Of a stretch of 64,000 nt of DNA, positions 1 to 12,853 are shown piece after piece. Every line of letters begins with the position of its first letter. Within the stretch, counting starts at the first letter, position 1. Source of the DNA: Cystobacter fuscus (GTDB lineage Bacteria; Myxococcota; Myxococcia; Myxococcales; Myxococcaceae); the NCBI RefSeq assembly GCF_002305875.1, contig NZ_CP022098.1:5580001-5644000 (forward strand). The letters run 5' to 3'. The translations under genes and the position numbers were made by a program. The notes under the pieces are model-generated. The model was not told the origin of the DNA and searched no databases. It worked only from the letters and a program-made list of their open reading frames with translations.

Positions 1-219
1 GGGCCGCACCTTCTCGTAGAACGCGCTCCCCGCCGTGGTCAGCGCCACCTTGCGCGTGCTGCGGTGGAAGAGCTGCACGCCGAGCGACGCCTCGAGCGCC
101 GCGACCCCCCGGCTCACCGAGGACTTCGGAATCCCCAGCTTCCGGGCCGCCGCGGACATGCTCCACGTCTCGGCGACCGCCACGAACAGCGGCAGGAGGT
201 TCAGGTCGGGCGTTCCCAT
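1..219 (-). CDS. LysR-family transcriptional regulator, N-terminal part (cut by window edge)
   Basis: Reading leftward from an ATG at 219, the 73 visible codons encode a winged helix-turn-helix typical of LysR regulators. It opens MGTPDLNLLPLFVAVAE, and the recognition region includes KLGIPKSSVSRGVAALE followed by LGVQLFHRSTRKVALT. The rest of the protein, including the effector-binding domain, lies outside the window. It is divergent from the DoxX-like gene at 357, with a perfect palindrome between them, so it probably controls that gene and itself. The family is secure; the inducer cannot be guessed. Confidence 0.85.
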   Translation of the reverse strand, partial: MGTPDLNLLPLFVAVAETWSMSAAARKLGIPKSSVSRGVAALEASLGVQLFHRSTRKVALTTAGSAFYEKVRP

Positions 220-257
220 GACGTCACGCGGTTATGACAGCTCCCCGGTGGCGTCAA

Positions 258-275
258 TGTTCCATGGGTGGAACA
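258..275. promoter_or_regulatory. Palindromic operator candidate in the LysR/DoxX divergent promoter
   Basis: The sequence is TGTTCCA-TGGG-TGGAACA, a perfect inverted repeat with 7-base arms and a 4-base centre. It lies 39 bases from the LysR start and 82 bases before the DoxX-like start, a normal position for a LysR-type site. Binding by the adjacent LysR is inferred. Confidence 0.55.
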
Positions 276-356
276 GCGTGTGCCCGCGCGAGGTCTGGTG
301 GCGCGTCCACTCGAGCGCTACTTCATGGCCATCCCGACGAGGCACAGGAGCCCACC

Positions 357-827
357 ATGAACGCCGCCGCGAATCCCGCCCCTTCCATGCTGTCTTCCGC
401 TTCCTCGTCGCACGGCCTGCACCTGGGCCTGTGGGCGGTCCAGGGAGTGCTCGCGCTCGTCTTCATGGGCGTGGGGCTGGTGAAGCTCTTCACACCCTAC
501 GAGCTGTTGGCCTCCCAGGTCGCCTGGGTGGGCGCCGCCCCCGTCGCGCTGGTGCGTTTCATCGGCCTGTCGGAGGTGCTCGGCGCGCTCGGGCTCGTCC
601 TGCCGGCCGCCACCCGCATCAAGCCCGTCCTCACGGGTCTGGCGGCGCTGGGCCTCACCCTGGTGATGGTGCTCGCCGTCGGCGTGCACGTCGTGCGCGG
701 TGAGGGCTACGTGCTCGCCCTTCCGCTCCTGCTCGGCGTGCTCGCCGCCTTCGTCGCCTGGGGCCGTCTGACGCAGGTCACCCTCGACGCGCGTCACGAG
801 GCATTCATCGCGCGGAAGATCGCGTAG
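357..827 (+). CDS. DoxX-like small integral membrane protein
   Basis: This 156-residue protein has about four hydrophobic segments separated by short loops, as in DoxX/DoxD-like proteins. The first segment, around residues 25-45, contains LVFMGVGLVKLFTPYE, a typical DoxX opening (GxxKL). Members are small inner-membrane proteins, often linked to redox or quinone stress and often divergent from a LysR regulator, as here. The ATG at 357 is preferred over an in-frame upstream ATG at 234 because AGGAG lies just upstream and hydrophobicity begins after it. The exact function is not known. Confidence 0.75.
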   Translation: MNAAANPAPSMLSSASSSHGLHLGLWAVQGVLALVFMGVGLVKLFTPYELLASQVAWVGAAPVALVRFIGLSEVLGALGLVLPAATRIKPVLTGLAALGLTLVMVLAVGVHVVRGEGYVLALPLLLGVLAAFVAWGRLTQVTLDARHEAFIARKIA

Positions 828-901
828 AGGATCGCGGACAGGGCAATCGAGACGAGGATGGAGCCCACACAACCGAGCTTGCTGGAGAAGAAGAAGAACA
901 T
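794..901 (-). CDS. Possible 35-residue single-span membrane protein
   Basis: A short open frame reads MFFFFSSKLGCVGSILVSIA and continues as a hydrophobic helix to a short basic/polar tail ending RAMNAS. The pattern of aromatic start, SKLGC and then a glycine/serine-rich transmembrane helix looks like a genuine micro-protein rather than random GC-rich translation. It overlaps the end of the DoxX-like gene on the other strand by 34 bases. No good ribosome-binding site is visible, so expression is uncertain. Confidence 0.35.
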   Translation of the reverse strand: MFFFFSSKLGCVGSILVSIALSAILYAIFRAMNAS

Positions 902-997
902 GCGGAGAAGGTGTGCGGCCCGTGGGCGGGAAGCAGGCTCCGCGAGCACCTGGAGCGCGTGAAGTGTACGGCGATCGACAGCCAGGCGAGGAGAGTC

Positions 998-2371
998 CTA
1001 CTCCAGCAGGAGGCCCGCCGGCAGCCCGTGGGGGTTGAGCAGTCCGGAGGGATCCCGGGACGCGCGCCATGTCCGCAGGAGGGAGAGATCTTCCGCGTAG
1101 AGCCCCCGGAGGGTGGCCACGTCGAGGAGGCTCCCCCCACGCAGGGAGGGACGGCCACCGGCGCGCACGCACCACTCGAGGCAGGCCTGGTGGAGCGCCT
1201 CGGCCGCCTGGAGTCCGGACCCGTCCCCCACGTCCACGCCGTGGTAGAGGCCCAAGGCATACAGGCGCTCCGCGCGTGGGGTGGGCGGCCTCATGTCGAA
1301 GGGCCCACGCGTCCGGCCCGGAGGGTGGGCCAGCCCCAGCAGGGAGACGGCCTCCATCCCGGACATCCACCCGGGCCATCCCTCGAGGAAGCGCGCGAAG
1401 CCACGCAGCCCCTCCAGATCGAGGCAGTAGTCGCACCACACCCGGCGGCGCCAGGGATGGCGCTGGCGCGTGTCGTCCTCGTCGCTCCAGGTGAGGAGTT
1501 GAGGGGGCGCATCGAGCTCCGTCCGCTCCCGCGTCATGCGCGCGAGGGGATCGGGTGGGGAGGCCCGCGCGGCGCTGGTCTCGTCGGGGAAGTCCCGTCC
1601 GAAGACGGACCAGAACCGGCCCTCCTTCCAGAAGCCGAGGAAGTGCTCGGGGGTGGACTCCCGCCACGTCTCGGTCCACGCCACGGCCTCCACCAGGTCG
1701 CTCAGGCCGCCGTGGGGGTTGAGCTGCAGGCGAGTCAGTGGCCGCAAGGGCAGGGTGTCGAGCACCACGCGCTCGATGACACCCACCTGTCCACAGCCCG
1801 CCAGCGCGAGGCGGAAGAGATCCGGGTCCTCCCCGGGGCCACACCAGAGGGCGGTGCCATCCGCGAGCACGAGCCGCAGCCGCTCGACGTGATCCACCTG
1901 CGTGCCCTGGTGGAGCGAGCGCGAGCCGAAGCCTCCCTCCGACAGTGTTCCGCCCACGGTGGTGCCGGGCGCGGACGTGAGCACGGGCAGCGTCCTGCTC
2001 GCGGCGTTGAGCGCCTCCTCCACCTGGGCCCATCGCGTGCGGGCGGAGACCTCCACGCGGCCCTCGTCGAGCAGGCGCACCTCGCCCCCCTCCGCGCGGT
2101 TGTCGAGGATGATGCCTTCCTCGTCCAGGGTCTGGCCTCGGGTGCTGTGGCCGGAGCCGCGCACGGTGATGCGAACCCCATGGGCGCGGGCCACCCGCAG
2201 GGTGTGCACCACGTCCGCCTCGCACCGCGCCCGCACCACCACCCGGGGGACCCGGCGCACGAGTCCCCCGAAGTCATGGGCATACAGCTCGAGTTCTTCC
2301 GGGGTGGCGCGCAGGGGACCGCTGAGTCCACCGCGCAGATCATCCAACAGGGACAGGGCAGGGGGACTCAT
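998..2371 (-). CDS. FAD-linked oxidase, cytokinin-dehydrogenase-like (PCMH fold)
   Basis: This 457-residue flavoprotein belongs to the vanillyl-alcohol oxidase/PCMH family. Residues 40-220 form the FAD-binding domain. RGSGHSTRGQ (His about 75) corresponds to the GHS motif whose histidine carries covalent FAD in cytokinin dehydrogenases. TVGGTLSEGGFG, followed by HQGTQVDHVERL, closely resembles the plant cytokinin dehydrogenase block. The C-terminal part would be the substrate cap and ends close to residue 457, shorter than plant enzymes. Substrate class (cytokinin-like amine, sugar alcohol or other) is inferred and open. The gene reads in the same direction as the HlyD-like gene 63 bases upstream. 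Confidence 0.75.
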   Translation of the reverse strand: MSPPALSLLDDLRGGLSGPLRATPEELELYAHDFGGLVRRVPRVVVRARCEADVVHTLRVARAHGVRITVRGSGHSTRGQTLDEEGIILDNRAEGGEVRLLDEGRVEVSARTRWAQVEEALNAASRTLPVLTSAPGTTVGGTLSEGGFGSRSLHQGTQVDHVERLRLVLADGTALWCGPGEDPDLFRLALAGCGQVGVIERVVLDTLPLRPLTRLQLNPHGGLSDLVEAVAWTETWRESTPEHFLGFWKEGRFWSVFGRDFPDETSAARASPPDPLARMTRERTELDAPPQLLTWSDEDDTRQRHPWRRRVWCDYCLDLEGLRGFARFLEGWPGWMSGMEAVSLLGLAHPPGRTRGPFDMRPPTPRAERLYALGLYHGVDVGDGSGLQAAEALHQACLEWCVRAGGRPSLRGGSLLDVATLRGLYAEDLSLLRTWRASRDPSGLLNPHGLPAGLLLE

Positions 2372-2434
2372 GGAGGTGGTGGCAGTCTAGCACTCACCCC
2401 CTCGGGCAGCCTGGTACCTCGGCCACGGCCCCGC

Positions 2435-3682
2435 TCATTGAACCTTCACGCGAGGCACCTCGCTCCACGCCGACATGTCCGAGAGGATGACGCGATCACC
2501 CACCGCCAGGCCATCGAGCACCTCGATGGTATTCACGGAACTGCGTCCGAGGTGGACCTTCACCCGCTCGGCGTGCGTGCCGTCCGCCGTCAGGCGGAAC
2601 AGCTCCATGGAGGAGGAGGGCTGGGCCCCCGCGGGGCGTCCCACGTTGAGCACTTCGTTCAGGCGCTCCAGCTCGATGGTTCCCTCCACGCTCAAGTCCG
2701 GCCGGGCCCCCGCGGGCAGCTCGCCCTCGAGCGACACCTCCACGAGCACCGTGCCCTGGACGGCCGCCGGGGCGATGCGCGCCACCTTGCCGGGAACGAG
2801 CCCGGTGCGCGTGTCCACCTTCACCGACTGGCCCGGCTGCACGTCCTTGGCCTGCGTCTCCGGCACGCGCAGCACGGCCTTGAGCACCCCCGGTTGGATG
2901 ACCTTGGCCAGCACCATGCCCGGTGTCACCCACTGGCCCAGCTCCACGCTCAGCTCCTGCAAGAGGCCGTCCGTCCGGGCGCGCACCTTCATCGACTCGA
3001 CCTGACCGCGGCGGAAGTCCACCACGGCCTTGAGGCGCTGCACCTGCGCGCGTTGCGCCGTCAGCCGGTCCGTCATGCTGCGGGCAATCACCTCCAGGCG
3101 CCGCTGCTGCAATTGGAGCTGTTGTCCCAGCTCCTCGGACTTCTCGTTCAACTCCTGCATTTCCACGGACGCGATGTACTGTTTCTCGCCCAGGGCCGTA
3201 CTGCTCTCGGCGCGCCGCCGGGTGGTGACCTGCTCCGTGCGCAGCCGGGCCAGGCTCGACTCCTCCTGCAGCCGCTGGATCTCCAGCTCCTCCTTCAGGG
3301 CCATCAACTCCCCCTCGGCCACGGCGAGCTGGCGCTCGGCCTCCAGCGCCTGGAGCGCCACGTCGGGGTTGGACAGCTCCATGAGCTGCGTGTCCGCCTT
3401 GACGCTGGCGCCCGGGCGCAGCGGCAGGTGCTCGATGCGGCCGGCCGTGTCGGCGGTGATCCACCGGAAGTTCTCGGGGACCAGCGTGCCGGTGCCCACC
3501 ACCTGCCGGATCATCTCCCCCTGCTTGACGCTGTCGATCCACACCGAGGCCCCATCCACCTCCGGTGCCGCCTGGCCCAACTGGCTCATGCCGAACGTGA
3601 TCAGGACGAGCACCCCGAGGATCAGCGCTCCGTAGAGCAGCGGGGTGCGGCGGCGTTTCTTGGCGGTCCTTGGAATGTCCAT
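2435..3682 (-). CDS. Periplasmic adaptor (HlyD/MacA-type membrane fusion protein), orphan
   Basis: The 415-residue protein has a basic N-terminus and one transmembrane anchor (about residues 15-33). A biotinyl-lipoyl-like half follows (GRIEHLPLRPGASVKADTQL), then a long alpha-helical hairpin rich in Q, E and L (about 110-235), the second lipoyl half, and beta-barrel/membrane-proximal domains. This is the layout of adaptors that bridge an inner-membrane pump to an outer-membrane channel. No ABC or RND pump gene lies next to it in the window; the next gene downstream is the FAD oxidase. It may serve a pump encoded elsewhere. Confidence 0.85.
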   Translation of the reverse strand: MDIPRTAKKRRRTPLLYGALILGVLVLITFGMSQLGQAAPEVDGASVWIDSVKQGEMIRQVVGTGTLVPENFRWITADTAGRIEHLPLRPGASVKADTQLMELSNPDVALQALEAERQLAVAEGELMALKEELEIQRLQEESSLARLRTEQVTTRRRAESSTALGEKQYIASVEMQELNEKSEELGQQLQLQQRRLEVIARSMTDRLTAQRAQVQRLKAVVDFRRGQVESMKVRARTDGLLQELSVELGQWVTPGMVLAKVIQPGVLKAVLRVPETQAKDVQPGQSVKVDTRTGLVPGKVARIAPAAVQGTVLVEVSLEGELPAGARPDLSVEGTIELERLNEVLNVGRPAGAQPSSSMELFRLTADGTHAERVKVHLGRSSVNTIEVLDGLAVGDRVILSDMSAWSEVPRVKVQ

Positions 3683-3853
3683 GGCAGGGTCGCGTGAAGG
3701 CTGGGGGTCCGGTGGGGGACCCCCTCATTCAGAGCAAATGATATGCCACCCCCCTGGGCCCGCAACCGCCTGAAATTCCTACCCCCCGCCTCCCGTGCGC
3801 GTTCGCTTCCGGGCGGTCGATCCCAAAAGCGGACACCGCGGGCGAGGGGGGCG

Positions 3854-4546
3854 CTACCGGTAGGTGATGAGCGCCCGGCGCGCGCCCTCGAAGTGGGAGT
3901 GCTCGTTGAGCGTGGAGAGGTAGCGGCCCCGCTCGCTGTAGATGAGCTTGGTGACGCCACAGTTGGTGAGCATCCAGTTGATGCGGAACGCGTGCTCGTC
4001 CGGCAGGTGCAACAGCTCCTGACACACCGCGGTGATGGGTCCCCCCGAGGTGAACACCACGCCGGTGGCGGAGGGACCCAGGGTCTTCAGGACGGTGTCC
4101 AGGGACTGGGTGCAGCGCTGGCGGAAGGCGGACCAGGTCTCCTTGTACTCGGCGTCGTGCTGGCCGCTCACCCAGCGGGCCACCGCCTGGGTGAACAGCT
4201 CCTGGAAGGCCCGGCGCGGATCCGCGGTGGACAACACCTCCTGGCGGAGCGTGGCGGGGTCCGCGTAGCGGGGCGTGTGCAGGCGGATCAGCTCGTCCTG
4301 GTCGAACTCGTCGAAGCCCGGGAGGCTCTGGAGCTTCAGGTCCACGCCCCAGGTGGACTGGCACGCCTCGGCGGTCTCCCGGTGGCGCCGCAGGCTTCCG
4401 GTGAAGAGCGCGTCCGGCCGGGGCAGGCGCGAGCGCAGACTCTCGCCGAGCACGCGCGCCTGCTCGAAGCCGGTCTCCGACAGCGCGTCGTAGTCCGACT
4501 TGCCGAAGGAGGCCTGACCATGGCGCACCAGGTACACCGCGCCCAT
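3854..4546 (-). CDS. Histidine phosphatase superfamily protein (phosphoglycerate-mutase-like)
   Basis: This 230-residue protein begins MGAVYLVRHGQASFG; the RHG motif at residues 8-10 holds the catalytic histidine of the branch. A second conserved region reads VVFTSGGPITAVCQELL. It is the last gene of a four-gene operon: its ATG overlaps the stop of the APH-family kinase by one base (TGATG). A phosphatase working beside a kinase and an acyl-CoA dehydrogenase suggests hydrolysis of a phosphorylated pathway intermediate or by-product, but this is inferred from context. Confidence 0.85.
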   Translation of the reverse strand: MGAVYLVRHGQASFGKSDYDALSETGFEQARVLGESLRSRLPRPDALFTGSLRRHRETAEACQSTWGVDLKLQSLPGFDEFDQDELIRLHTPRYADPATLRQEVLSTADPRRAFQELFTQAVARWVSGQHDAEYKETWSAFRQRCTQSLDTVLKTLGPSATGVVFTSGGPITAVCQELLHLPDEHAFRINWMLTNCGVTKLIYSERGRYLSTLNEHSHFEGARRALITYR

Positions 4547-5619
4547 CAGCGGCCCTCCCGCTTGATGAGCCCGCGGCAGCGCCAGTCGAGGTAGTTGACG
4601 AGCACCCAGAAGTTCTTGAACGCCGGGTTGCGCGTCTGCTTGTGGTGATAGCGGTAGTAGATCTGCTGGATGATGACGGCGAGGCGGAACAGGCCGTAGA
4701 CCTCGTAGAAGGCCCAGTTGGCGGGCTTGAGGCCCATGCGCTCGAGGTAGTAGGCGACCACCTCCTCGCGCCGGAGCATGCCGGGCAGGTGGGTGGGCTG
4801 GCGGCGGGTGCTGCGCAGGATGATGTGATCGTCGGGGTGCACCCAGTAGGCGAGGGTGTTGCCCAGATCCATCAGGGGATCGCCCAGGGTGGCCATCTCC
4901 CAGTCGAGCACGCCGATGACCTCGGTGGGCCGCTCGGGGTCGAGCACCACGTTGTCGAAGCGCCAGTCATTGTGGATGACGCACGTGGCGATGTCCTCGG
5001 GGGTGTTCGCCTTGAGCCAGTCGCGCACGCGGCGGTAGCTCGGCACGTTCCACGTTCGGGCCTTCTCGTAGCGCTCGGACCAGCCCTCGATCTGCCGCCG
5101 GGGATAGCCGGGCCCCTTGCCGAGCGACGTGAGCCCCGCGGCCTGGGGATCCACCCGGTGCAGCTCGATCAGCTTGTCGATGACGTTGAGGCACAGGCGG
5201 CGCGTCTGGGCGGCGTCCAGCGTCATGCCCGCGGGCAGGCGCGAGCGCGGAATGAGGCCCGGGATGCGCTCCATGACGTAGAAGTCCGTGCCGATCACCG
5301 TCGCGTCCTGACACAGCCCCACCATGGTGGGCACGGCGGGGTAGACGGGCTTGAGCGCCTTCTGCACGTTGAACTCGCGCGCCATGTCGTGCGCGGACTT
5401 CGCCTTGGTGCCCGCCGGGGGCCGGCGCAGGATGAGGTCGCGCTGGGGGTACTTCAGCCGGTAGGTCCAGTTGGAGGCGCCCCCCGAGTACTGCGTCACC
5501 TCGGGAGTGCCCTCCAGCGAGGGCTCCTGGCGCTTGAGCCAGGCGTCCACGGCCGCGACGTCGAGCTCCTCGCCCTTGCGCACGGCTCCGGCTTGATCAG
5601 TGGTTGGGGTCGCGGACAT
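4546..5619 (-). CDS. APH-family phosphotransferase of the ACAD10/LvaA type
   Basis: This 357-residue protein has the aminoglycoside-phosphotransferase/choline-kinase fold. The catalytic loop reads HNDWRFDNVVLDP and the metal-binding segment GVLDWEMATLGDPLMDLGN. These match the kinase half of human ACAD10/11 and the bacterial LvaA group, except that the usual HGD is HND. That group phosphorylates the 4-hydroxyl of 4-hydroxyacyl-CoA. A GAGGA site precedes the ATG; the gene starts 7 bases after the SDR stop and overlaps the histidine phosphatase by one base. A kinase role on hydroxyacyl-CoA is inferred from family and neighbours. Confidence 0.85.
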   Translation of the reverse strand: MSATPTTDQAGAVRKGEELDVAAVDAWLKRQEPSLEGTPEVTQYSGGASNWTYRLKYPQRDLILRRPPAGTKAKSAHDMAREFNVQKALKPVYPAVPTMVGLCQDATVIGTDFYVMERIPGLIPRSRLPAGMTLDAAQTRRLCLNVIDKLIELHRVDPQAAGLTSLGKGPGYPRRQIEGWSERYEKARTWNVPSYRRVRDWLKANTPEDIATCVIHNDWRFDNVVLDPERPTEVIGVLDWEMATLGDPLMDLGNTLAYWVHPDDHIILRSTRRQPTHLPGMLRREEVVAYYLERMGLKPANWAFYEVYGLFRLAVIIQQIYYRYHHKQTRNPAFKNFWVLVNYLDWRCRGLIKREGR

Positions 5620-5626
5620 GGGTTCC

Positions 5627-6448
5627 TCAGGCCTTCGCGGTGCCGAAGCCGCTCATCCGGCGCGCCTGGTTCCTGATCAGCTCGGAGTAGATCCGGCGTG
5701 GCAGGAGCCGCTTGGCCAGCCACGCCTGCCGGCCTTCCAGGTGGGGCAGGACGTAGAACTCGCGCGTCTTCACCGCCTGGAAGATCTGATCCGCGATGTC
5801 CTCCGCGGTGATCTTCGAGCGGTTGAGCAGCTTGCCCATCACGGCGTGCATGGCGGGATTGCTGGTGCGCAGGGAGTCGGCCAGGTTGGTCTTGAAGAAG
5901 GACGGGCAGACGAGCGTCACGCCGATCTTCGAGTCGGCGAGCTCGTTCTGTAGCGTCTCGGAGAGGGAGACGACGGCGGCCTTGGTGGCGTTGTAGGCGC
6001 CCATCATCGGCATGTCGAGCAGCCCCGCCATGGAGGCGACGTTGACGAAGTGGCCGTGGCCCTGGCGCTTGAACAGGGGCGTGAACACATGGCAGCCGCG
6101 CACGACGCCCATCAGGTTGATGTCCACCACCCACTGCCAGTCGGAGATCGGCACCTCGTCGATGCCGCCCGCCTGGGCGACGCCCGCGTTGTTGACCACG
6201 ACGTCGACGCCACCCCATTCCTCGTTGAGCCGCTCGGCCGCCGCGCGCAGATCGCCCTCGCGCGTCACGTCACAGTGCACGGAGAGGGCCTGGACGCCCA
6301 GCGCCTTGAGCTCCGCGAGCGTCTCCTTGCCGCGCGCCTCGTGCACGTCGCCGATGGCCACGCGCCAGCCCGCGCGCGCGTAGCGCAGCGCGATGGCCTT
6401 GCCCAACCCACTGGCACCACCCGTGATGAAGATTCGCTGTGAGGTCAT
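5627..6448 (-). CDS. Short-chain dehydrogenase/reductase
   Basis: This 273-residue SDR has the cofactor motif TGGASGLGKAIA at residues 8-19, the NNAG motif (VVVNNAGVAQAGG) and an active site with serine in VASMAG and YNATK in GAYNATKAAVVSLSE. It is a classical SDR of the fatty-acyl or hydroxyacyl type. Its ATG at 6448 overlaps the acyl-CoA dehydrogenase stop (ATGA), which shows translational coupling and rules out a longer N-terminus. In the operon it could oxidise or reduce a hydroxyacyl intermediate. Confidence 0.88.
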   Translation of the reverse strand: MTSQRIFITGGASGLGKAIALRYARAGWRVAIGDVHEARGKETLAELKALGVQALSVHCDVTREGDLRAAAERLNEEWGGVDVVVNNAGVAQAGGIDEVPISDWQWVVDINLMGVVRGCHVFTPLFKRQGHGHFVNVASMAGLLDMPMMGAYNATKAAVVSLSETLQNELADSKIGVTLVCPSFFKTNLADSLRTSNPAMHAVMGKLLNRSKITAEDIADQIFQAVKTREFYVLPHLEGRQAWLAKRLLPRRIYSELIRNQARRMSGFGTAKA

Positions 6449-7692
6449 GACCGGTCGCTCCGGGAGAAGCCGCGCCTGGCGAGCTCGATGCGGGCGATGA
6501 CGCCCTTGTGCACTTCGTCCGGACCATCCGCCAGGCGCAGGGTGCGCGCCTGGGCGAAGAAGCCCGCGAGCGGGGTGTCGTTCGACACGCCCGCGCCACC
6601 GAAGATCTGGATGGCGTCGTCCACCACCTTCTGCAGGACGTTCGGCGCGACGACCTTGATGGCGGCGATCTCCGACATGGCCCCGAGCGCGCCCACCTCG
6701 TCCATCTTCCACGCCGCGTAGAGCGTGAGCAGCCGGGCCTGATCGATGGCGATGCGGGCCTCGGCCACGCGCTCGCGGTTGCCGCCCAGGTTGAGCAGGG
6801 GCTTGCCGAAGGCGGTGCGCTTCATGCCGCGGTCGATCATCAACTCGAGCGCGCGCTCGGCCGCGCCGAGGCAGCGCATGCAGTGGTGGATGCGGCCGGG
6901 ACCCAGGCGACCCTGGGCGATCTCGAAGCCCTTGCCCAGGCCACTGATGACGTTGGAGGCGGGCAGGCGCACGTTCTCGAAGCGCACCTCGCCGTGGCCG
7001 CCGTGCGAGATGTCGTACTCACCGAACACCGGGAGCATGCGCTCGACGGTGACCCCGGGCGAGTCCAGCGGCACGAGCACCATGGAGTGCTGATGGTGCC
7101 GGTCCTGGTCCGGCGCGGGGGTGCGCGCCATGAAGATGGCGACCTTCGCCTTGGGGTTGCCCAGGCCGCTCGACCACCACTTGCGGCCATTGAGCACCAC
7201 GTGGTCGCCGTCCAGCACCGCCGTGGCCTGCATGTTGGTGGCGTCCGAGGAAGCCACGTCCGGCTCCGTCATGCAGAACACCGAGCGGATCTCCCCGGCG
7301 AGCAGCGGCTCCAGCCACTGCTTCTTCTGCTCCTCGGAGCCATAGCGCCAGAGCACCTCCATGTTGCCGGTGTCCGGGGCGTTGCAGTTGAAGACCTCGG
7401 GGGCGATGAGGCTGCGGCCCATCTCCTGGGCGATGGGCGCGTACTCCAGGGTGCTCAGGCCCGCGCCGAGCTTCGCGTCGGGCAGGAAGAGGTTCCACAG
7501 GCCCTCGGCGCGCGCCCTGGCCTTCCACTCCTCCATCAGGGGGGGAATCCGCCAGCGCCGCCAGTCTCCCCCCACTTGATCCGCCTGGAGTTGCGCCGCG
7601 TAGCGCGCTTCCGCCGGCTCGATGTGCTCGCGCACGAAGCGCTTCACGCGCTCGAGGTATTCCTGGCTCCTGGCGCTTGGCTCGAAGTTCAT
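6445..7692 (-). CDS. Acyl-CoA dehydrogenase, ACAD10/11-like
   Basis: This 415-residue flavoenzyme carries the acyl-CoA dehydrogenase signatures FCMTEPDVASSDATN (FAD/substrate segment) and, near the C-terminus, FGGAGVSNDTPLA followed by RLADGPDEVHKGVIA. The last is the ACAD11-type ending. The ATG at 7692 follows GGAGG at ideal spacing, so the upstream in-frame ATG at 7722 is rejected. It is the first gene of the operon and is divergent from a LysR regulator at 7774. ACAD10/11-type enzymes work with an APH-family kinase in 4-hydroxy-acid breakdown, and such a kinase is two genes downstream. Confidence 0.9.
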   Translation of the reverse strand: MNFEPSARSQEYLERVKRFVREHIEPAEARYAAQLQADQVGGDWRRWRIPPLMEEWKARARAEGLWNLFLPDAKLGAGLSTLEYAPIAQEMGRSLIAPEVFNCNAPDTGNMEVLWRYGSEEQKKQWLEPLLAGEIRSVFCMTEPDVASSDATNMQATAVLDGDHVVLNGRKWWSSGLGNPKAKVAIFMARTPAPDQDRHHQHSMVLVPLDSPGVTVERMLPVFGEYDISHGGHGEVRFENVRLPASNVISGLGKGFEIAQGRLGPGRIHHCMRCLGAAERALELMIDRGMKRTAFGKPLLNLGGNRERVAEARIAIDQARLLTLYAAWKMDEVGALGAMSEIAAIKVVAPNVLQKVVDDAIQIFGGAGVSNDTPLAGFFAQARTLRLADGPDEVHKGVIARIELARRGFSRSDRS

Positions 7693-7741
7693 CGTTCCTC
7701 CCGTATCCGTTGCTCGCGGCATCCTGGAGCAGGGGGTGTTG

Positions 7742-7780
7742 ATGAATCCAATGAATCCTGGTCATGTGTTCGCATGAATC
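7742..7780. promoter_or_regulatory. Three ATGAATC direct repeats in the divergent LysR/acyl-CoA dehydrogenase promoter
   Basis: ATGAATC occurs at 7742-7748, 7751-7757 and 7774-7780. The first two are 9 bases apart start to start; the third contains the LysR start codon. The 81-base gap between divergent genes is small, so the first two repeats are reasonable regulator contacts. The third may simply be coding sequence. Confidence 0.3.
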
Positions 7781-8712
7781 GGGCTCATGAACCGTCACGC
7801 CTGACGGGATTGGATCTCAACCTCTTCCGGGTCTTCGACGTCGTGCTCCAGGAGCGCAGCCTCACGCGGGCCGCGGAGGTGCTCTTCCTGAGCCAGTCGG
7901 CGGTGAGCCATGCGCTGGCGCGGCTGCGCGAACAGCTCGGCGAGCCGCTCTTCGTGCGGGAGGGAAGGGGAGTGACCCCCACGCCGCTCGCCGAGCGGCT
8001 CGCCCCGGAGATTCGCGAGGCGCTCGCGCTGCTCCAGCAGGCGGTGCATCGCACCCGGGGCTTCGAGCCCGAGCGGGACGTGACCGAGGTGACCCTCGCG
8101 ATGAACGACGAGCTGGAGCCCGCGCTGCTGCCGCGCCTGGTGGAGCGCCTGCGCGCGAGCGCCCCGAAGGTCCGGGTCTCCAGCGTCCGGGTGGAGCGCT
8201 CCAAGCTGGAGAGGGATCTGGCGTCGGGGTGGTTGGACCTGGCGATCGACGTGGCGCAACTGACGGGCGCCGGACTGCTGCACACGGCGCTGATGCGCGA
8301 CAGCTTCTGCGTGGTGAGTGGACAGCGGCGCAAGAAGCTGGACGTGGCGGCGTATCTGGCCGCGCGGCATGTCACGGTGTCGTCGCGGCGCACGGGGCTG
8401 GCCATGGAGGATCTGGTGATCAACCGCCTGGGCCACCAGCGACAGATCGCCGTGCGCTGCCAGAACTACGAGGCGGCCTGCCGCATCGTCTCGGAGTCGG
8501 ACCTGTTGCTCACCCTGCCACGGCGCCAGGCGCGGGCCATTGGCGTGCCCATGGGCAACCACCTGCTGCCGGTGCCGCTCGCGCTCCCCCCCGTCGAGCT
8601 CCACCTCTACTGGCACCGGCAGACGGACCTGGATCCGAGGGGCCGGTGGTTGCGCGAGCAATTGCTCGCGCTGGCCGGGGAGCTGCTCGGCCGTGAGGCC
8701 CGTCAGGGGTAG
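7774..8712 (+). CDS. LysR-family regulator of the hydroxyacyl-CoA-type operon
   Basis: The 312-residue protein has a LysR helix-turn-helix at residues 10-70 (LFRVFDVVLQERSLTRAAEV, then SQSAVSHALARLREQLGEPL) and a periplasmic-binding-protein-like effector domain from about residue 95. It is divergent from the acyl-CoA dehydrogenase operon, the usual arrangement for a LysR gene and its target. Its 3' end overlaps the thiD gene on the other strand by 10 bases. Effector binding of a hydroxy acid or its CoA ester is a guess from context. Confidence 0.88.
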   Translation: MNRAHEPSRLTGLDLNLFRVFDVVLQERSLTRAAEVLFLSQSAVSHALARLREQLGEPLFVREGRGVTPTPLAERLAPEIREALALLQQAVHRTRGFEPERDVTEVTLAMNDELEPALLPRLVERLRASAPKVRVSSVRVERSKLERDLASGWLDLAIDVAQLTGAGLLHTALMRDSFCVVSGQRRKKLDVAAYLAARHVTVSSRRTGLAMEDLVINRLGHQRQIAVRCQNYEAACRIVSESDLLLTLPRRQARAIGVPMGNHLLPVPLALPPVELHLYWHRQTDLDPRGRWLREQLLALAGELLGREARQG

Positions 8713-10954: not shown

Positions 10955-12853
10955 CTACCGCCTCCGCGCGTTCAGGTAGTCCTGGTGCCAGGCCTTGGGC
11001 AGACGGGCCAGCACGTCCGTCGGTTTGTTCGCGGGACGCTCCAATTCCTCCTGCATGGTCAGATCCCCCACGAGGAAGCCGCCCGCGAACATCGTCCGGC
11101 CCAGCGCATCCACTCCCGCCAGTTCCTCGGCGGTCCCCAGCTTCAGGTTGAACACGCGCTTGCCCTTCACCGGCACGCGCTTCACCGCGGTGAGCGAGGC
11201 GACACCTTTGTCCGTGCGGACCTGATCCCGCGCCTTCAAATCCCTCGCCGCCACCACCTGGCCCTTCGCGGTGATGACCGGGTGCATCTCGGTGAGAGTC
11301 ACCTGGTGGCCGAGGCTGTCACGCAGGTGCACGAAGGGAGTCATCTCATTGCCGCGTGCCACGTCGGTCACCGTCAACGCCGCACGGCCGGCGCCTGCGA
11401 GGACCTTGTCCCCCAGCTTCACCTGCTCCACTGGAACCACGCGGCCCCCGGCCAGCTGGATTCGAGTGCCCTCGGCCATGCAGCTATTGCGGAAGAAGAG
11501 CCGCTGGGTGGTCAACGCGCGCCCATCGATCGCCTGGGACTTGTAGAACGGCTCCAGGTAGTCGACGCCCTCCGCGCTGGTGCATCTGGCCTTTCCCAGG
11601 ATGGTGATGGTGAAGGTGGTGGCTCTGTTGAGGACCTTGTTCGCTCCACAGTCTTCGGGGTTGTTCTGGTTGATGCCGTACGAGGTGTCGGCGAGGTGAT
11701 TGAACGTCGCCTCGTAGTGGCCCACGGGAAGCAGCTCCTTGAAGTCCACCGTGTTGGAGCAGACCACGCCCGTATCGGTGTGGAGCCTGACCCGACCATA
11801 GGTGTAGCTGTCCACTTTGCATTGCAAGTAGTTGCGAGCCCCTGCCTTGATCTCCGTGCGGACCGGGATGTAGAGCCGCCGGTTGTTGAACGGCGCGGAG
11901 AACTCCCAGTAATCGGCGGGGTCGAGCACGCCCGGGGCGTCGGTCCTCGACGCCGCGACTCCGGTCGGCGTCGGGGGATAAGCCATCAGCACGCCATTGG
12001 AGTAGCCGGCCACCGCGTAGTCGCAGTCCGCGCCGCCACGGAGCTGACACAGGACGATGTCGGACGTGCTGTTCGGGGCGTTCTCGCGCGGGTGGAGGAG
12101 CGTGAACCCTCCCTCCTGCAGTAAGGCAACGGACGTACGGGCCACGGTGTAGGTGGAGACGTCCCGGCCCGTCACGTCATCGATGGCCAGGGCGATGGAC
12201 TCCAGCCGGAGCAGGCGTCCATCCGCCACGTTCACCGTGGCCGCGGTGCCCACATCGATGAAGTTGGTTCCACCGCCGTACTCCTCGCCCGCGTTGGACG
12301 CGACCATCCTGCTCTGGGTCTCCCCCTGATTGGTTTCATGGGCGACGATGTCCGCGTAGACGTAGGTGGCTCCTCCCTGGCAGCTCACGTGGACATACGG
12401 TTCATAGCGCATGGACCCGCCATCATTGATGGGCATCGGAGGCTTCACGATCAGGTAGTGGTCGCACCAGATCGGCTGCTCGGTCGGCGCCGCGGCCGCG
12501 GGTTGCCCGCTCCCGCGGGAGAGGGCACGTCGCCTCAATCTGACCAGCCTGTTGAAGAGCTCGGGCGAGTTCCGCTCATCCTTGCCCGCCGCACGGAGCC
12601 GATTGAGCACGAAGCCGTATTGCGTGTCATCCGACAGGTCGAGCTCGATGCTGAGCCGGTCGCCCCTCGAGCGCGGTCTGGCATCATACAGCACGCTCAT
12701 CTGCTGGGATTGCCCGGTCAGTACCTGGTGCGACACGTTCGTGGAAAGTGGCCGCGGCGGCATGCTCCATCCGGCACCCAACAACGCCAGACCCGTCAGC
12801 TGAACGGCACGGATGCAACACTTCCACTGTGACAGGGTTTTCTCGAGTCCCAT
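10955..12853 (-). CDS. Exported protein with C-terminal Hint (hedgehog/intein) domain
   Basis: This 632-residue protein starts with a signal-like segment (hydrophobic about residues 16-31) and a cysteine-rich middle of unknown function. The last 175 residues resemble a Hint domain. Cys458 opens the block CMAEGTRIQLAGG, followed by VKLGDKVLA, a TEMHPVIT motif (block B, TxxH) and a terminal block MFAGGFLVGDLTMQ. In inteins and most Hint domains the last block ends with HN; here the position reads GD, so C-terminal cleavage chemistry looks lost. The start is preceded by GGGAG. It is convergent with the CCA-type gene. The middle region is unrecognised. Confidence 0.7.
   Translation of the reverse strand: MGLEKTLSQWKCCIRAVQLTGLALLGAGWSMPPRPLSTNVSHQVLTGQSQQMSVLYDARPRSRGDRLSIELDLSDDTQYGFVLNRLRAAGKDERNSPELFNRLVRLRRRALSRGSGQPAAAAPTEQPIWCDHYLIVKPPMPINDGGSMRYEPYVHVSCQGGATYVYADIVAHETNQGETQSRMVASNAGEEYGGGTNFIDVGTAATVNVADGRLLRLESIALAIDDVTGRDVSTYTVARTSVALLQEGGFTLLHPRENAPNSTSDIVLCQLRGGADCDYAVAGYSNGVLMAYPPTPTGVAASRTDAPGVLDPADYWEFSAPFNNRRLYIPVRTEIKAGARNYLQCKVDSYTYGRVRLHTDTGVVCSNTVDFKELLPVGHYEATFNHLADTSYGINQNNPEDCGANKVLNRATTFTITILGKARCTSAEGVDYLEPFYKSQAIDGRALTTQRLFFRNSCMAEGTRIQLAGGRVVPVEQVKLGDKVLAGAGRAALTVTDVARGNEMTPFVHLRDSLGHQVTLTEMHPVITAKGQVVAARDLKARDQVRTDKGVASLTAVKRVPVKGKRVFNLKLGTAEELAGVDALGRTMFAGGFLVGDLTMQEELERPANKPTDVLARLPKAWHQDYLNARRR

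Follow-up and report, generated by a model that had tools for sequence, protein, structure and literature searches.

What might a Hint domain do at the end of a protein when the residue pair that splicing uses on its C-terminal side has been replaced by another? This question is raised by a gene of the soil myxobacterium Cystobacter fuscus, located at positions 10955-12853 on the minus strand of a 64,000-nucleotide stretch (NZ_CP022098.1, positions 5,580,001 to 5,644,000; hereafter the window) of a genome that forms a single contig of 12.35 Mb. The open reading frame is real, running from an ATG start through 632 codons to a stop. A preliminary description made from this stretch alone had recognized an exported Hint-domain protein with a degenerate C-terminal cleavage site, and had proposed that the domain could release or lipid-modify the upstream part of the protein as hedgehog does. 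Here, we report that the C-terminal domain is, by structure prediction, a Hint domain of the hedgehog/intein type, that both its N-side residues and its altered C-side ending are invariant among relatives, and that cleavage on the N-side only is its probable activity.

Identification of the Hint domain

Two alignments underlie the counts given below. The first (55 rows) holds the window protein and 54 myxobacterial relatives from fetched loci (designated by L numbers), with a best profile E-value <1e-100 and a reading frame of at least 500 amino acids; duplicates by the last 300 residues were dropped, a truncated copy in L033 and a short sister class were excluded, and not all family matches are included. 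The second (22 rows) adds one Tistrella, two Pseudoalteromonas and one Embleya protein.

The Hint module spans residues 458-601 (positions 11051..11482; all features of this gene lie on the minus strand), as judged from Pfam, profile, predicted structure and fold matches. Across the whole protein, the Pfam families Vint (3.1e-5), Hint (1.1e-4) and PT-HINT (2.2e-4) were matched, all below their curated cut-offs. When the Hint domain was scanned alone, Vint (PF14623) reached E 8e-7, its 29.4 bits exceeding the cut-off of 27, which upholds the Hint-type C-terminus proposed in the preliminary description, and Vint was matched at 0.01 by the Hint parts of all 22 rows. The best match of the 22-row profile was the solved bacterial intein-like (BIL) domain 2lwy of Clostridium thermocellum (1.2e-13). 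No NCBIfam model matched the window protein; intein-type NCBIfam models matched other members, with TIGR01445 found in 13/22 (best 2e-6).

AlphaFold2 modeling of residues 452-632 with seven aligned sequences yielded a best model with a mean predicted local distance difference test (pLDDT) score of 84.3 and a predicted template modeling score of 0.75, the other four models having pLDDT values of 83.2, 70.3, 56.0 and 51.5. Searched with Foldseek, the best model retrieved inteins and BIL domains on top (gp41-1 intein, 4.6e-8), with hedgehog at ranks 32 (1.4e-5) and 34, whereas a second aligner gave the top place to hedgehog 6tyy (Z 18.1; 130 residues at 1.8 A), tied with hedgehog 1at0 and a RecA intein (each Z 17.8), and scored BIL 2lwy at Z 16.8. 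The predicted Hint fold thus agrees with what had been proposed, and hedgehog is the nearest fold by the second aligner, in a tie with inteins, but not by Foldseek. Cys458 is the first residue of the structural match, and in the alignments to several inteins Asp597 is the last; this Asp, residue 146 of the model, is paired, for example, with residue 145 in the MchDnaB-1 intein 6rix. Because the sister entry of that structure, 6riy, is titled N145AA, Asp597 can be placed where an intein has its terminal Asn, and the replacement of the terminal His-Asn by Gly-Asp noted in the preliminary description was confirmed. The features that define the Hint superfamily were accordingly all found, namely a predicted Hint fold, a block A beginning with a putative nucleophile and a TxxH motif in block B.

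Conserved residues and selection

Residue invariance was observed on both sides of the module. Cys458 (11480..11482), the putative nucleophile, Glu503 (11345..11347), Thr521 and His524 of the block B TxxH (11282..11293), Pro525, Asn569 (11147..11149; position 4 of block F as judged from its VFNL motif, and aligned with an Asn of BIL 2lwy), Gly592, Val595, Gly596-Asp597 (11063..11068) and Gln601 (11051..11053) are identical in 55/55 rows, and the 22-row set retains all of them except Thr521, which is Ser in Embleya. Checked at the codon level, Cys458, Thr521, His524 and Gly596-Asp597 lie exactly where they had first been read. Each of the 55 proteins has exactly one Cys from position 458 onward, so that Cys458 is the sole Cys of the module. 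The residue before it, Ser457 in the window protein, is Ser in 46, Ala in four, Gly in three, Val in one and Ile in one of the 55 rows, while the residue following Asp597 is Leu598 in the window protein, Ser in 10/55 rows and never Cys or Thr.

In place of a His-Asn ending, the module has a block-G-like FAxGxLVGD, with Asp597 preceding a predicted helix (598-605). Two Azospirillum proteins and a member found on a viral contig likewise finish with VGD and a Gln four positions further (the viral-contig member has Asp aligned with Glu503); by contrast, one phage Hint protein and one polymorphic-toxin Hint protein of Streptomyces end in VHN. Since Gly-Asp...Gln is identical in all 55 rows and occurs in other phyla too, the Val-Gly-Asp...Gln ending is, on the alignments, a family signature of a maintained class, and the term "degenerate" used previously for this site does not hold. 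The signature also makes the class easy to recognize.

The module is kept while the upstream part of the protein varies, as indicated by a lower ratio of nonsynonymous to synonymous substitution rates (dN/dS) and a higher identity. In the same-genus pairs L005 and L006, dN/dS was 0.18 and 0.12 for the Hint domain versus 0.42 and 0.48 for the front part, and mean pairwise identity across the 55 rows was 53% for the Hint domain, 31% for the front part and 35% for the tail that follows the module.

Proposed cleavage on the N-side

In Hint chemistry, the N-side reaction requires Cys1 together with the Thr and His of block B, and the C-side reaction requires the terminal Asn, helped by its neighboring His. 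We consider it probable that the module cleaves at Ser457-Cys458 by an N-S acyl shift only, thereby freeing or modifying the front part. The protein would be an exported one of two parts, comprising a cysteine-rich and beta-rich front (about residues 41-457) and, toward the C-terminus, a Hint module that acts on itself (458-601) and carries a short helical tail. Once the protein is exported and folded, Cys458 would attack the Ser457-Cys458 peptide bond, aided by Thr521 and His524, and the N-S acyl shift would yield a thioester at residue 457. Water or an outside nucleophile would then open the thioester and separate the front part from the module; the C-terminus of the front part would end up free or in covalent linkage to the nucleophile. 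No splicing would be expected, because Gly-Asp stands in for His-Asn and the module is followed only by a short tail. While export, thioester formation and cleavage are what we infer, several results point toward this activity: the N-side residues Cys458, Thr521 and His524 (plus Glu503 and Asn569) are invariant while the C-side pair is uniformly Gly-Asp, the predicted domain folds like hedgehog, purifying selection in the two close pairs is stronger on the Hint domain than on the front part, and the module of this cysteine-rich protein, which is probably exported, has retained just one Cys. Hedgehog itself uses the N-S shift only (PMC7664689). The suggestion that the domain acts "as hedgehog does" therefore fits insofar as N-side chemistry is concerned, the N-side residues being invariant and the C-side pair replaced, but not insofar as it implied a decayed splicing site, given the invariant ending shared with other phyla.

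Several observations weigh against this proposal. Position 4 of block F is Asn, unlike the Asp most often found there in inteins (PMC4031507), although BIL 2lwy also has Asn. By eye, the two Azospirillum proteins lack Glu503 and show Ser at the place of Thr521 and His at the -1 position. In a more distant pair (L007), constraint on the Hint domain barely exceeded that on the front part (dN/dS 0.36 versus 0.39). Finally, a conserved Hint domain could alternatively serve for binding.

The last of these objections amounts to an explanation of its own, in which the Hint domain is no longer catalytic and is retained for folding, sorting or binding. The loss of C-side chemistry is compatible with it, as is the structural unit suggested by Gln601 and the tail, but binding alone does not need a single Cys, a Thr and a His all held invariant at the catalytic places in 55/55 rows, and we regard this explanation as unlikely. 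Lower still we place the idea that Asp597 continues to cleave the C-side by cyclization, removing the last 35 residues. It would account for the identity of Asp597 in 55/55 rows, and Asp and Gln can stand in for the terminal Asn in some inteins, with inteins ending in either residue having been reported (PMC4031507). However, the helper His is Gly in every row, and the +1 residue is Ser in a minority of rows and never Cys or Thr. A further argument comes from the shorter sister class of myxobacterial Hint proteins, in which, among 12 proteins picked from the list of matches (one of a duplicate pair being left out), Gly-Ser replaces Gly-Asp in 11/12 and is followed by Gln-Asn in 12/12. Ser is unable to cyclize, so finding the same design with Gly-Ser speaks against a cyclizing role of the C-side residue. 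Both Asp and Ser cap helices well, and the predicted helix begins at 598; since capping, and not cyclization, is what the two residues share, Asp597 looks like a helix cap with a structural role in the model, and cyclization appears improbable.

Two further explanations were rejected. A pre-toxin Hint domain releasing a toxic tail, as in polymorphic toxins, would be consistent with the PT-HINT match (2.2e-4, below cut-off), but only 31 residues follow the module (13-20 in 6/55 rows), so that there is a Hint domain without cargo after it, and no possible immunity-gene neighbor was common to more than 5/41 loci; we hold this to be very improbable. Scarcely credible, in turn, is an intein in decay, that is, a former splicing element losing its C-side. 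The fold and the N-side residues are intein-like, as such an origin would predict, but Gly-Asp and Gln601 do not vary in the 55 rows or in the other phyla, Hint dN/dS is low in close pairs and there is no C-extein.

A bolder version of the N-side proposal, which we consider rather doubtful, is that the module is a counterpart of hedgehog autoprocessing, in which the thioester at residue 457 would be passed to an outside nucleophile chosen with the help of the tail, fixing an exported beta-rich protein by its C-terminus. The nucleophile might, with the same reservation, be a lipid, a glycan, a peptidoglycan amine or a partner protein, and in some relatives the protein would be lipid-anchored as well; just as tentatively, attachment to the cell surface, the matrix or prey would be a sortase-like task performed without a sortase. 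If the module does cleave or ligate, bacteria have a simple autoprocessor of the hedgehog type whose ending is fixed and non-splicing; some genomes carry several copies of it, and the front parts evolve faster than the module. Such a system would let one ask, in prokaryotes, how processing of the hedgehog type can arise where no splicing takes place, and it might also be a way by which Gram-negative bacteria attach proteins covalently.

What the tail could contribute is bounded by its length and constraint. It comprises residues 602-632 (10958..11050), is predicted to be helical and contains the motif LPKAWHQDY, with W622 present in 47/55 and D625 in 49/55 rows. Its 31 residues after Gln601 (13-47 across the 55 rows) are too few for a sterol-recognition region of the size expected in hedgehog, which leaves lipid transfer of the hedgehog type, one of the two outcomes offered in the preliminary description, without support. 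In three pairs, tail dN/dS over 27 codons was 0.34, 1.08 and 0.57; in the close pairs the tail was under no stronger constraint than the remainder of the protein. Being short in six rows and not visibly constrained in close pairs, the tail cannot be essential everywhere, although it may hold a miniature recognition element.

Export signal and N-terminal part

The protein is probably exported. A probable export signal, read by eye from the sequence, occupies residues 1-31 (12761..12853) and ends in ...LLGAGWS; the top hydrophobic 15-residue windows of the protein begin at residues 11-17, a modest peak with a mean of 1.5. The "GW" of the window protein occupies the place of the lipobox "GC" in many relatives, and these look like lipoproteins. 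Among the N-termini of the 55 rows, labeled by eye since a regular expression missed or misplaced some, 23 have a lipobox Cys, 23 have GW, six have AxA and three are unclear. The 23 GW proteins form one group in a tree (with an arbitrary root and node support not printed).

The N-terminal part (residues 41-457, 11483..12733) of the window protein matched no Pfam or NCBIfam family. Its previous description as cysteine-rich, beta-rich and unrecognized was borne out: eight conserved Cys (130, 158, 269, 277, 345, 365, 402 and 424) are all present in 48/55 rows, and a full-length model (pLDDT 54) shows the front part, with low confidence, mostly as strands. Matches of this model to transglutaminase, VPS26 and other beta-sandwich folds (Z about 7, low TM-score) reflect common arrangements, and no fold is claimed on their basis.

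The Cys residues tend to be lost jointly, which suggests disulfides. C130, C158, C345 and C424 are missing together in the remaining 7/55 rows and C365 and C402 together in one, while C269 and C277 are both missing in Embleya and, by eye, in the two Azospirillum proteins. These patterns suggest putative disulfides 365-402 and 269-277, as well as 130-158 and 345-424, the last two being paired solely on the basis of proximity. The Tistrella protein, which is without C269 yet keeps C277, argues against the 269-277 disulfide. These two Cys lie in a conserved motif of the front part, CQLRGGADCDY from residue 269 (12023..12049), in which C269, R272, D276, C277, D278 and Y279 are identical in 55/55 rows, and R272, D276, D278 and Y279 are kept in 22/22.

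Genomic context and distribution

In three genomes of the genus, that of the window included, the gene sits alone between genes for a CCA-adding enzyme and MnmA, the relatives at this chromosomal place in the two other genomes being 92% and 87% identical. A fourth genus member that was searched has only a 46% relative, lacking these neighbors. At E <=1e-3, matches were found in 49/96 genomes of the family (own included), spread over 7/26 genera, and in the phylum, 65/195 genomes matched at 1e-5 in a profile search in which Hint-only matches are counted. Named genera among the relatives are Corallococcus, Myxococcus and Pyxidicoccus.

No conserved partner gene was found among 41 flanked loci, where the Hint family cluster itself occurred in 39 and every other gene cluster in at most five, with genes called by length and codon composition so that some were possibly missed. 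Accordingly, nothing in the neighborhood points to a nucleophile. Five loci (L039, L046, L048, L050 and L075) each hold two or three family members within one DNA stretch. In one subgroup (L053, L054, L055 and L056), a large gene comes after the Hint gene, and in L053 this gene has matches to an ice-binding-like adhesive domain (1e-45) and to alpha/beta-hydrolase families (2.3e-6). The Tistrella locus (L079, 3852-10555) has two very large genes after the Hint gene, one with a weak fibronectin-type match (0.0012, below cut-off) and the other without a match in the part scanned. In Azospirillum brasilense (L118, 2921-8465), the member adjoins genes for a tryptophan halogenase, a LodA/GoxA-type oxidase and a ferritin-like protein, on the opposite strand.

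A single family member was found on viral contigs. Encoded at L117 (IMGVR_UViG_2848501288_000009, 1-7794), this protein of 597 amino acids, with the ending FAGGILVGDNNLQ, is divergently oriented beside genes that read by eye as tube, sheath, sheath, sheath and tube, a neighborhood that looks like an extracellular contractile injection system. Seven plasmid records were matched at E 0.01 with the window protein as query and 10 at 0.001 with the viral-contig member, some being other Hint types; the corresponding numbers of phage records were one and 14, which to judge from their labels are inteins and phage-gene Hint proteins.

Comparison with known systems

A bacterial subgroup with a C-terminal Hint domain, signal peptides in some members and two upstream Cys conserved in all was described by Burglin in 2008 and set apart from inteins, Hog and BIL domains, having been seen earlier by Dassa and Pietrokovski (PMC2362128). 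Its listed members are Stigmatella STIAU_1829, Myxococcus MXAN_6253, Photorhabdus plu1731 and proteins of Reinekea, Serratia and Yersinia, and the section of that paper on the group offers no mechanism (PMC2362128). The group is probably either the long class described here or its short sister class, and a search of open PubMed Central papers found no work on its function and no test of the proposed cleavage. C269 and C277 would fit the two upstream Cys, being present in all 55 rows, but both are missing in Embleya and C269 in Tistrella; the short class fits too, with an upstream Cys pair in the copies examined. To this, our results add the Val-Gly-Asp...Gln ending across phyla, the Gly-Ser sister class, the cysteine pattern, the lipoprotein-like forms and the selection contrast between module and front part.

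The sister class is also represented in the genome of the window, where two adjoining frames of 297 and 285 residues with GS and RFQNEW endings are found (L002 and L078, around G000:C1:821697-822008). At L058, amid an array of intact copies, one sister-class frame (9965 minus) has its block B His replaced by Gln and has lost Gly-Ser while keeping the Cys; judged by its sequence, this is a natural decayed copy that can serve as a control for contrast.

Type B BIL domains are said to be without block G and to cleave without splicing (PMC4031507). The class described here lacks His-Asn but has a block-G-like FAxGxLVGD, and its module forms the very C-terminus of a defined protein with an invariant ending. 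Inteins differ in that the Gly-Asp of the window protein is followed by Leu598 rather than by Cys, Ser or Thr at +1, and then only by the tail, with no C-extein. Vint is the best Pfam match of the window Hint domain, yet no VWA match was found in front of it at E up to 10, where VWA-Vint proteins have VWA and Vwaint domains, and polymorphic toxins with PT-HINT differ by their toxin domain, of which there is none here and for which the tail would leave little room. Hedgehog is similar in the N-terminal Cys of the module, in TxxH, in the absence of a terminal Asn and in fold (Z 18.1 and 17.8). In hedgehog, Asp46 activates the sterol, and the hedgehog entry placed first by the second aligner, 6tyy, is a D46 mutant. 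The window protein departs from hedgehog in its tail, too short for a sterol region, and in its unrelated front part, which is without a hedgehog signaling domain (only Hint-type Pfam matches were obtained at E up to 10). Taken together, these sequence comparisons suggest a conserved and probably exported class that is neither intein nor hedgehog and that probably acts on its N-side only.
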